Part shown: one piece after another, positions 23,576 to 31,352 of the stretch
How positions within the stretch are numbered: the stretch's first letter is position 1
Layout: every line of letters begins with the position of its first letter
From: Caldimonas tepidiphila
GTDB taxonomy: Bacteria > Pseudomonadota > Gammaproteobacteria > Burkholderiales > Burkholderiaceae_C
Assembly (NCBI RefSeq): GCF_003569765.1
Contig: NZ_KZ983965.1
Span: 414 to 35,641, forward strand
DNA length: 35,228 bases
Direction: 5' to 3'
Translations under genes and position numbers: made by a program
Notes under the pieces: generated by a model
What the model was told of the DNA's origin: nothing
What the model saw: only the letters and a program-made list of their open reading frames with translations
Databases searched by the model: none

Positions 23576-23627
23576 CCTCATCTTTTCACTGACCGTACCG
23601 TCTATATGAGGGGGGTCAAATGGGGGG

Positions 23628-25169
23628 TCATCCCTGGGCGGCGACCCGCTCCCCCTTCTGGTGCAGCTTGTTCAGTGCCGCGAGATAGGCCTTGGCCGAC
23701 GCGACGACGATGTCCGGGTCGGCACCGACGCCGTTGACGACCCGGCCGCCATGCTGCAGCCGCACCGTCACCTCGCCCTGCGATTCTGTGCTGCCGGAGG
23801 TAATCGCATTGACCGAATACAGCAACATTTCGGCACCACTTTGCACCTTGGACTCGATCGCCTTCAGGCTCGCGTCGACCGGGCCGTTGCCGTCGCTCTC
23901 GGCGTGGAACTCCTCGTCGCCGGCGGCGAAGGCCACGCGGGCGTGCGGGCGCTCGCCCATCTCCGAGTGCTGCGACAAGGCCAGCAGCCGGAAGTGCTCC
24001 TGCTCGGCGGTGACGCTCTCGTCGGCGACGAGCGCGATGATGTCCTCGTCGAAGATCTCGCTCTTGCGGTCGGCGAGGTCCTTGAAGCGCGCGAACGCCG
24101 CGTTGACCTCGGCCTCGGAGCCGAGCTCGATGCCGAGCTCCTGCAGGCGCTGCTTGAAGGCGTTGCGGCCCGAGAGCTTGCCGAGCACGATCTTGTTCGC
24201 GCTCCAGCCCACGTCCTCGGCGCGCATGATCTCGTAGGTGTCGCGCGCCTTGAGCACGCCGTCCTGGTGGATGCCCGAGGCGTGGGCGAAGGCGTTGGCG
24301 CCCACCACCGCCTTGTTCGGCTGCACGACGAAGCCGGTGGTCTGCGACACGAGGCGCGAGGCGGGCACGATCTGCGAGGTGTCGATGCCGACCTCGAGCC
24401 CGAAGTGGTCGCGGCGCGTGCGCACCGCCATCACCACTTCTTCCAGCGCGCAGTTGCCGGCGCGCTCGCCCAGACCGTTGATCGTGCACTCGACTTGGCG
24501 CGCGCCGCCGATCTTCACGCCGGCGAGCGAGTTCGCCACCGCCATGCCCAGGTCGTTGTGGCAGTGCACCGACCAGATTGCCTTGTCGGAGTTCGGGATG
24601 CGCTCGCGCAGCGTGCGGATGAAGTTGCCGTAGAGCTCCGGCACCGCGTAGCCGACCGTGTCGGGCAGGTTGATCGTGCTCGCGCCCTCGTCGATCACCG
24701 CCTCCAGCACGCGGCACAGGAAGTCCACGTCCGAGCGGTAACCGTCCTCGGGCGAGAACTCGATGTCCGCGCACAGGTTGCGCGCGAAGCGCACCGCGAG
24801 CCGCGCCTGCTCGTACACCTCGTCGGGCGTCATGCGCAGCTTCTTCTCCATGTGCAGCGCGCTCGTCGCGATGAAGGTGTGGATGCGCGCGGAGTTCGCG
24901 CCCCTGAGCGCGTCGGCGGCCCGCGAGATGTCGCGGTCGTTGGCGCGGGCGAGCGAGCAGACGGTGCTGTCCTTGATCGCGTCGGCGATCGACTTCACCG
25001 CCTCAAAGTCGCCGTTGGACGAGGCGGCGAAGCCGGCCTCGATCACGTCGACGCGCAGCCGCTCGAGCTGGCGCGCGATGCGCAGCTTCTCCTCGCGCGT
25101 CATCGACGCGCCGGGTGACTGTTCGCCGTCGCGCAAGGTGGTGTCGAAGATGATCAGCTTGTCGGCCAT
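23628..25169 (-). CDS. leuA: 2-isopropylmalate synthase
   Basis: First enzyme of leucine synthesis: condenses acetyl-CoA with 2-oxoisovalerate. The TIM-barrel domain begins with the signature [15 protein letters not shown] (9-23) and holds the metal-binding VHCHNDLG motif (His202, His204). The C-terminal part, about 390-505, is the LeuA allosteric domain for leucine feedback. At 513 residues it has the usual size. The start follows GGAG. It is preceded by an 18-residue leader peptide with four leucine codons and an intrinsic terminator, so expression is controlled by leucine availability as well as feedback. Confidence 0.97.
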
Positions 25170-25204: not shown

Positions 25205-25243
25205 CAAGAAAAACGGCCCGCTGCGCATGTGCGTGGCGGGCCG
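25205..25243 (-). terminator. Attenuator terminator upstream of leuA
   Basis: CGGCCCGC (25214-25221) and GCGGGCCG (25236-25243) form an 8-bp outer stem, with a further 4-bp inner stem after two mismatches. In the minus direction it is followed by TTTTTCTT. It stands between the leader peptide stop and the leuA start, the position expected of a transcription attenuator. Confidence 0.78.
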
Positions 25244-25274
25244 TGATGCAGTTGAAAGCTGTAGACGTGTGCGA

Positions 25275-25331
25275 TCAGCGCGCCCGGGACTGTCCCGGGA
25301 GAAGTAGCAGCGAGGCGGCGATGAACGTCAT
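25275..25331 (-). CDS. leuL: leuA leader peptide (leucine attenuation peptide)
   Basis: A short frame on the minus strand, ATG 25331 to TGA 25275, encodes MTFIAASLLLLPGQSRAR (18 residues). Four consecutive leucine codons, CTG CTA CTT CTC, are all different and include CTA, rare in such GC-rich DNA, so the ribosome should stall when charged tRNA-Leu falls. CCCGGGAC/GTCCCGGG (25283-25299), overlapping the end of the frame, can form a hairpin, and the intrinsic terminator at 25205-25243 follows. A -10-like TATATT (25343-25338) places the expected start of transcription at or next to the ATG, so the leader mRNA may be leaderless; no ribosome binding site precedes it. Confidence 0.8.
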   Translation of the reverse strand: MTFIAASLLLLPGQSRAR

Positions 25332-25345
25332 GCGGTCAATATAAC
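25332..25345 (-). promoter_or_regulatory. Likely -10 element of the leuA promoter
   Basis: TATATT on the minus strand (25343-25338) is the only AT-rich element between the pssA stop and the leader peptide. Transcription would start about seven bases on, at 25331, the A of the leader ATG. No good -35 is visible 16-18 bases upstream. Confidence 0.45.
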
Positions 25346-30533: not shown

Positions 30534-30621
30534 GTGTCGAACCTTTCAGATTTTCTCTGACGAAAAACGATCGGTGCCCCTCCTCTCGCCCTCGTGAGGC
30601 GGCTTCAGGGCCTGCGCGGTC

Positions 30622-30653
30622 AAAAAACTCGGACGGCCCGGGTCGGGTCGTCC
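30622..30653 (-). terminator. Terminator-like hairpin in the ilvB leader
   Basis: GGACGGCCC (30631-30639) and GGGTCGTCC (30645-30653) form a 9-bp stem with one mismatch and a 5-base loop. In the minus direction six T residues follow, about 90 bases before ilvB. With a possible -10 (CATAAT, 30689-30684) just upstream, it may be a transcription attenuator. No leader peptide as clear as the one before leuA is visible. Confidence 0.5.
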
Positions 30654-30794
30654 AGTCAAGACCAGATTGTTGTGCAGCCGCACATTATGGCATCGCGAGC
30701 GCCACGGGGGCTTTCCCCTCCGCTTCGAGGGCGGACGGGATGCGATAATTTTCCGAGTGCATTCCAGATCGCCCCCCGAGGCGACGCCGCTTTC

Positions 30795-31352
30795 TTGGCC
30801 AGCCCCACAGAACTTTCCGACTTCCTCAAGAGCTGCGAGAAGCGCGCCTTCAAGCGCACCCTCTATGCGGTCCGGGACGCCGATGCCGCGCTCGACATCG
30901 TGCAGGACGCGATGATCCGGCTGGCCGAGAAATACGGCGACCGCCCCGCCGCCGAGCTGCCGCTGGTCTTTCCCCGCATCCTCGCCAACGCCACCACCGA
31001 CTGGTTCCGCCGCAGCAAGGTGCGCAACACCGTGGTGCAGAACTTTTCCGCCTTCGAGCAGATCGATGGCGAGGACGCGTTCGACCTGCTGGAGGCCCTC
31101 GACCAGGCGAGCGCGAACGAGAGCGCGGCGGACGCGCTGTCGCGGCAGCAGACGATCCGGGCGATCGAGCAGGAAATCGGGGAATTGCCCGCGCGTCAAC
31201 GCGAGGCCTTCCTGCTGCGTTACTGGGAGGAACTCGACGTCGCCGAGACGGCGGCTGCCATGGGCTGCTCGGAAGGCAGCGTCAAGACGCATTGTTCGAG
31301 GGCCGTGCATGCCCTGGCCCGGGCACTGCGAGCCAAGGGAGTGGCACCATGA
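30795..31352 (+). CDS. ECF-type RNA polymerase sigma factor
   Basis: 185-residue group IV sigma factor. Region 2 is near the N-terminus (LYAVRDADAALDIVQDAMIRLAEKYGD), region 4 at the C-terminus (LPARQREAFLLRYWEELDVAETAAAMGCSEGSVKTH), with a helix-turn-helix. I place the start at TTG 30795 (reading ASPTELSDFLK next) because family homology begins there; upstream sequence in the frame is not family-like, and no ATG lies between. GATAAT (30744-30749) is a possible -10. The stop overlaps the next gene as ATGA. The next gene encodes a one-span membrane protein, so a sigma/anti-sigma pair is plausible. Confidence 0.88.
   Translation: MASPTELSDFLKSCEKRAFKRTLYAVRDADAALDIVQDAMIRLAEKYGDRPAAELPLVFPRILANATTDWFRRSKVRNTVVQNFSAFEQIDGEDAFDLLEALDQASANESAADALSRQQTIRAIEQEIGELPARQREAFLLRYWEELDVAETAAAMGCSEGSVKTHCSRAVHALARALRAKGVAP

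Follow-up and report, generated by a model that had tools for sequence, protein, structure and literature searches.

How transcription of leuA is controlled in Caldimonas tepidiphila, and at which nucleotide the RNA preceding the gene begins, is the question raised by a short leucine-rich open reading frame (ORF) lying just upstream of it. We analyzed a stretch of 35,228 nucleotides (hereafter the window; NCBI RefSeq assembly GCF_003569765.1, contig NZ_KZ983965.1, positions 414 to 35,641), in which leuA, the first leucine-synthesis gene, which we take to encode 2-isopropylmalate synthase, is located on the minus strand. An initial annotation, made from the letters alone, had proposed a leucine attenuator with a leader mRNA that starts directly at its ATG. 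Direct reading confirmed the 18-codon frame with the run CTG CTA CTT CTC as well as the intrinsic terminator before leuA, with both of its arms and the T tract (Table 1). Judging from the comparison with other genomes described below, leuA is almost certainly subject to attenuation governed by leucine, and the full arrangement, a ribosome-mediated transcription attenuator with a leaderless leader message, is in our view very likely. Attenuation with leaderless translation is, in silico, well supported.

Conservation of the leader upstream of leuA

The best 80 of 585 leuA relatives (protein identity 82–90%) were taken together with the window, giving 81 upstream regions that were read for up to 600 nt (shorter where contigs ended). 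Most of these relatives bear the name of a Burkholderiales genus or are called 'beta proteobacterium' or 'Burkholderiales'; one, L038, carries the label Gammaproteobacteria. Using the terminator and the leucine content alone, with the promoter left unused, a leader was identified in 57/81 regions (window included), and in 58/81 once L030 was added, which was accepted despite having only 2 Leu codons. For L064, the start of leuA was placed by hand. Since 58 of the 81 regions carry it, the layout is not a chance occurrence, and the alignment of leuA upstream regions that had been suggested as a check showed the Leu run and the terminator to be conserved, in favor of leucine attenuation. In the 58-leader set the promoter helped to pick among in-frame starts (in L006, another in-frame ATG lies 2 nt past the −10), so that the invariant −10 letters of this set are partly selected, and unselected counts are those of the 57-leader set. 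The remaining 23 regions consisted of 19 in which a class II leuA terminates immediately upstream, one of only 141 nt (L025), and three that lacked the module.

A second set of 78 loci (G314, where a partial class II leuA lies upstream, was left out), for which the promoter served as a tie-break, yielded 58 leaders (5 already known, 53 new) and 20 loci without one. Among the 53 new leaders, one of which (L223) is probably a chance frame, an extended −10 was found at 6–9 nt in 48 and a Shine-Dalgarno (SD) sequence in 1. The 14 class I genes of this set without a leader comprised 10 tandems in which the leader precedes class II leuA, three (L243, L248, and L249) for which leaders were located separately, and L197, which had none.

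Tandems of class II and class I leuA are frequent in the family, and in 18/18 of those checked in its other genomes (L213, L215–L221, L225–L232, L235, and L237) the leader was found before the first, class II gene. Seven further loci carry it before a class II leuA (L093, L095, L097, and L098 in the window's family; L099, L100, and L102 in family f10), while genome G342 has two separate leuA genes with a leader before each (L210, L222). The placement of the leader ahead of the first member of unlike tandem pairs shows that conservation of the regulatory module is separate from that of its target gene. Other CTA-containing short frames, unlike the window's type, were seen before the class II leuA of L233 and L236.

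The RNA model R1 matched 56 of 300 genomes of the order at E ≤ 0.001. Among the matches listed, the full-length ones were 8/9 in the window's family (its own genome included, weakly, at 28 bits) and 3 in f10 (44–63 bits). The places outside f1 and f10 (61/72 of those listed) were not counted as leaders, as 41 cover the model only partly and none exceeds 34.4 bits; in those that were fetched, the start motif of class I leuA was not found, and class II leuA, sought only in L105 and L107, was there without a leader.

Probable start of the leader RNA and control codon

In all 57 leaders found without the promoter criterion, the motif TGnTAnnnT ends 6–8 nt before an in-frame start. Across the 58 leaders this spacing is 6 nt in 32, 7 nt in 23, and 8 nt in 3, and the start codon is ATG in 57 and GTG in 1. 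ATG triplets occur at +6, +7, and +8 after the −10 in 31, 23, and 3 of the 58, elsewhere within 40 nt downstream at most twice per position, and upstream of the −10 at most 7 times at any single position. Such near-fixed spacing would be expected if transcription starts at the AUG. When the leaders were aligned on the −10, information was found at about −18 to −7 (TTGTGnTAcATT), whereas every position from −51 to −19 stayed below 0.3 bits, and hence no −35 is conserved. The 15 nt upstream of each start were also scored against the anti-SD sequence (threshold −4 kcal/mol or better), which gave 0/58 leader starts and, as a control, 51/58 leuA starts. A −10 distance that places +1 at the start codon and the lack of an SD were thus each found in 58/58 leaders, and the proposal that the leader mRNA begins at the leader ATG with no ribosome binding site held up: from these sequence features, it is very probably leaderless. 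Leaderless starts do occur in Burkholderiales, according to a source whose main text does not contain the word leuA.

The nearest upstream gene, which we presume to be pssA, lies on the same strand and stops 57 nt short of the leader ATG, and its C-terminal motif was recognized upstream of 54/58 leaders, 16–74 nt (median 39) before the ATG, so that the leader promoter is located in the short gap after pssA. This proximity would suit an arrangement in which attenuation is real and leader translation takes place on a longer RNA that has a 5′ untranslated region (UTR), made either by read-through from pssA or from a promoter further up. We regard it as unlikely, because the 58 leader starts lack an SD, the −10 is kept at 6–8 nt, and the stretch from −51 to −19 carries no position of 0.3 bits.

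The second property shared by the leaders is their codon choice. CTA makes up 130/261 of their Leu codons (50%) vs. 6/2206 (0.3%) in leuA of the same genomes, 117/250 in the second set, and in the window 1/4 in the leader vs. 1/190 in six genes. At least one CTA is present in 58/58 leaders, all four CTN codons in only two (the window and L018). The layout, its conservation, the CUA enrichment, and the absence of an SD are direct observations, and the rare CUA codon appears to be the conserved sensor. The two tRNA-Leu genes reported initially (TAA and TAG) are present in the window, approximately 15 and 22 kb from the leader, and the tRNA-Leu with the TAG anticodon is expected to read CUA. It had also been proposed that four different Leu codons form a sensor averaging several tRNA-Leu isoacceptors. 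The window's own codons are indeed all different, as are those of L018; this idea is nevertheless a reading of one unusual sequence, because only 2/58 leaders use four codons and CTA dominates. In PMC1183508, moreover, codon-choice theory and Salmonella leu experiments favor CUA as the sensitive codon: CUA is argued to be suitable for the E. coli leu attenuator, and the change from CUA to CUG lowered sensitivity in Salmonella. The control codon found here is of the kind that is most starvation-sensitive by this theory. We consider an averaging sensor improbable as a general principle, although a local adaptation of the window's sequence is conceivable. As CUA is retained in leaders while leuA of the same genomes nearly avoids it, these genomes offer a natural test of selective-charging theory.

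Terminator, candidate antiterminator and proposed mechanism

An intrinsic terminator between leader and leuA, together with a run of codons for the product amino acid in a short ORF, are two marks of an attenuator, and both were found. In the terminator, double-sided changes were seen at two pairs (13 and 11 of the 43 group A sequences). The same hairpin would also end pssA transcripts, and with pssA directly upstream and co-directional it might be a mere terminator of the pssA operon, preceded by a Leu-rich frame that arose by chance; this is very improbable, given that 58 regions preserve the frame with its Leu run, its preference for CTA, its start spacing, and its stop, and that the same leader precedes class II leuA. 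Equally improbable is a protein- or ligand-bound leader that acts on translation, like the LEU element described for the actinobacterial leuA region, which also carries a Leu-rich leader frame according to PMC1262725, as the window has a terminator that includes a T tract and shows compensatory change at two pairs, and the SD of leuA lies outside the hairpin.

The 127-nt leader RNA folds better than 200/200 shuffles (z −2.91), and the 162-nt version less distinctly (z −1.83, 8/200 shuffles equally good). In the free fold, the terminator is accompanied by a hairpin where the Leu run ends. A dyad had been reported to follow the frame; it exists, yet it shares nucleotides with the last Leu codon and the frame end instead of lying beyond the frame. 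For the competing antiterminator, folding points to a 14-pair candidate in which CGGGC.CG.UGAU.GCA pairs with UGCAUCACGGCCCG and consumes the terminator 5′ arm, which fits an antiterminator predicted to use the last leader codons and the stop.

Nascent RNA was folded up to the terminator 3′ arm with the ribosome represented as a blocked stretch, and the 5′ arm was considered sequestered at a probability > 0.5. A ribosome placed on the first, middle, or last of the Leu codons left the arm sequestered in 55, 57, and 56 of the 58 leaders, respectively; one placed at the stop left it sequestered by downstream RNA in 0/58, and the figure without a ribosome was 27/58. The terminator formed in 58/58 complete leaders without a ribosome. 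RNAalifold recovered the antiterminator core CGGGC:GCCCG. A strand-exchange test between species was used in place of covariation in this core, and each leader's own antiterminator strands paired better than exchanged ones (0/2000 permutations for all 58 and for group B, n = 15, the window's type; kinship was uncorrected throughout).

As to where transcription starts, where ribosomes stand, and how the switch responds to leucine, we infer the following sequence of events. RNA polymerase would begin at the extended −10, so that the RNA opens with AUG and a ribosome loads onto the 5′ end without an SD. When leucine is plentiful, the ribosome reaching the stop would mask the last codons, i.e., the antiterminator 5′ strand, the terminator would form, and transcription would end approximately 125 nt in. 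Scarcity of charged tRNA-Leu, especially of the CUA-reading one, would stall the ribosome in the Leu run, so that the last codons and the stop are free to pair with the terminator 5′ arm, and transcription would continue into leuA. Without any ribosome, the terminator would be the default. This gives a defined and directly testable leucine switch for these Burkholderiales, with promoter, leader, control codon, and antiterminator all specified.

Several results weigh against this mechanism or its generality. In the antiterminator core, no double-sided changes were found (14 group B and 43 group A sequences, L022 being excluded from B), the strand-exchange test was weak in group A (n = 43; 86/2000), and dinucleotide-shuffled spacers also sequester the GC-rich arm (mean 0.64 vs. 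0.92 for the real ones, with 30/58 beating 95% of their shuffles). The suggested folding check produced a candidate whose core is without covariation and whose shuffle control is moderate. If 5′ partners are allowed, the arm is mostly paired in 24/58 leaders even with the ribosome at the stop (0.32 in the window). The window's leader has a single CTA, as do 6 others, and the folds of some group A leaders (L036, L052) pair the Leu run with the stop-codon region, so RNA pairing, and not only tRNA sensing, could explain why CTA is retained. Finally, the leader is missing from three of the 81 leuA genes (L014, L066, L079), from L197, which has both pssA and leuA, and from the class I leuA L156 (family f10). 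Seven class II leuA loci of the family likewise lack a leader of the window's type (L223, L224, L233, L234, L236, L238, and L214, the second leuA of the own genome, upstream of which none was found).

More tentatively, the leaderless start might turn the attenuator into an insulator, in which only RNAs from the leader's own +1 can be antiterminated. RNA running in from pssA or the ilv cluster would contain the AUG internally and without an SD, the leader would stay untranslated, and the RNA would be terminated, because a leaderless leader is translatable only on RNA starting there. Part of the same doubtful proposal is that the small module precedes the leading leuA irrespective of whether this is class I or class II, and that the terminated RNA of approximately 125 nt may be a small leaderless mRNA with roles in trans, by analogy with rnTrpL.

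Genomic context and known systems

The features of the locus are collected in Table 1. We recognized, by gene names that are our assumption, the row ilvB, ilvH, ilvC, psd, pssA, and leuA on the minus strand of the window.

Table 1. Coordinates of the leuA leader and its neighboring features in the window
Feature	Position	Strand	Basis
Extended −10 promoter element TGT TATATT (= TGTTATATT); no −35 recognized	25346-25338	minus	read from sequence
TATATT alone	25343-25338	minus	preceded by TGT, hence extended −10
Spacer GACCGC, 6 nt	between −10 and leader ATG	minus	read from sequence
Putative transcription start, A of leader ATG, 7 nt past TATATT	25331	minus	6-nt spacing from −10
Leader peptide ORF MTFIAASLLLLPGQSRAR, 18 codons, stop TGA	25331-25275	minus	read directly; ORFs also in relatives
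Leucine control codons CTG CTA CTT CTC	25310-25299	minus	read directly; CTA in 58/58 leaders
Dyad CCCGGGACAGTCCCGGG, candidate 1:2 (pause/protector) hairpin, −12.6 kcal/mol	25299-25283	minus	folding
Antiterminator 5′ strand (CGGGCGCGCTGATCGCA), covers last codons and stop	25286-25270	minus	predicted
Antiterminator 3′ strand (TGCATCACGGCCCG), shares terminator 5′ arm; 14 pairs, −15.1 kcal/mol	25250-25237	minus	predicted
Intrinsic terminator ACGGCCCGC ... GCGGGCCGT (−23.9 kcal/mol) + TTTTTCTT	25244-25206	minus	sequence, folding, compensatory pairs
Terminator arms; T tract TTTTTCTT	25244-25236 and 25221-25213; 25213-25206	minus	
GGAG, Shine-Dalgarno of leuA	25179-25176	minus	read from sequence
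leuA, presumed class I 2-isopropylmalate synthase, gene under control	25169-23628	minus	ORF; 80 relatives 82–90% identical
Upstream co-directional gene taken as pssA	26210-25389	minus	ATG inferred inside longer open frame

A simple terminator scan and a sigma-70 scan of the window gave 0 and 0 matches at the leader, i.e., the terminator was missed by the scan. Reading the region upstream of ilvB by eye, we did not find a leader of the leuA type. The frame at 30594-31352 (plus), divergent from ilvB, presumably resembles an extracytoplasmic function (ECF)-type sigma factor. At 23602-24774 and on the strand opposite leuA, very long overlapping open frames occur on both strands (e.g., 485 aa at 23661-25118, plus), which across leuA are probably an effect of high GC.

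Leucine leaders of other kinds were seen elsewhere in the order. A second type of leuA leader occurs in other families (L124, L127–L130, L132, L133, L135, L136, L138, L140, L142, L144, L145, L147, L150, L158, L160, L163, and L166–L171); 60 loci were scanned, 28 frames flagged, 3 dropped as chance (L134, L149, L175), and 25 aligned. Its ORFs end mostly in ...GLLLR(P/L/S)AR or LLLRVRAH, often with CTGCTGCTGCGC-NNN-GCGCGCTAA, and by eye no obvious intrinsic terminator was found, a GC hairpin following right after the Leu codons. A −10 stands a few nt before the leader ATG here too, with TANNNT 4–10 nt before the start in 25/28 flagged frames, start choice having favored such spacing. As the stop of L138 falls inside the hairpin, it may be the RNA rather than the peptide that is kept in this type. 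Family f32 (L125, L153, L154, L157) has Leu leaders of a different sequence, with TATAGT 6–7 nt before the ATG and several CTA codons; L125 and L153 show terminator-like hairpins.

Searches with Rfam families (leucine leader, T-box, and others) gave no match at the gathering score for the leader in the window or in 15 loci, and the matches in the window were tRNAs only. RF02424 (Bp2_287) matched weakly on the window's other strand, at 23.4 bits vs. a cut-off of 70, and was dropped as unrelated. This family matched 28 of 150 genomes of the order at E ≤ 0.001, 1 of them above the cut-off, and in ten fetched loci (L083–L092) the class I leuA start motif was not found, class II not having been looked for.

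The enteric leu leader, for which Rfam holds a leucine leader family, has a 5′ UTR and an SD. With the Salmonella/E. coli leu attenuator the locus shares a Leu-rich leader peptide, the rare CUA, a terminator before leuA, and, as predicted here, a competing antiterminator; unlike it, the leader of the window would have no 5′ UTR and has no SD before its ATG. The rare use of CUA in S. typhimurium has been described (PMC1183508). By title and abstract, no description of a betaproteobacterial leuA leader was found in the open literature, and one may have been predicted in a 2004 survey of proteobacterial attenuators.

The closest parallels to the leaderless start come from other lineages. The trpL/rnTrpL leader of Sinorhizobium meliloti (PMC7298713) also encodes a leaderless leader peptide, and its terminated RNA is a small RNA; it differs in its Trp codons, in controlling trpE(G), in belonging to the alphaproteobacteria, and in that its start is known, whereas ours is deduced from the −10 spacing. 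In Streptomyces lividans, LeuL1 (leuA) and LeuL2 (leuS) are leaderless with a run of Leu codons (PMC8079986), and LeuL1 shares leuA as its gene, but it belongs to the Actinobacteria and has no typical Rho-independent terminator. A putative leuA leader of Corynebacterium glutamicum (PMC4046766), also actinobacterial, has a similar run of Leu codons, and a leaderless leader peptide has been described for ilvB of C. diphtheriae. Leaderless leader peptides are therefore known elsewhere, and the leuA leader of these Burkholderiales is a further lineage, adding to them proteobacteria in which leaderless initiation would be tied to attenuation across many genera.
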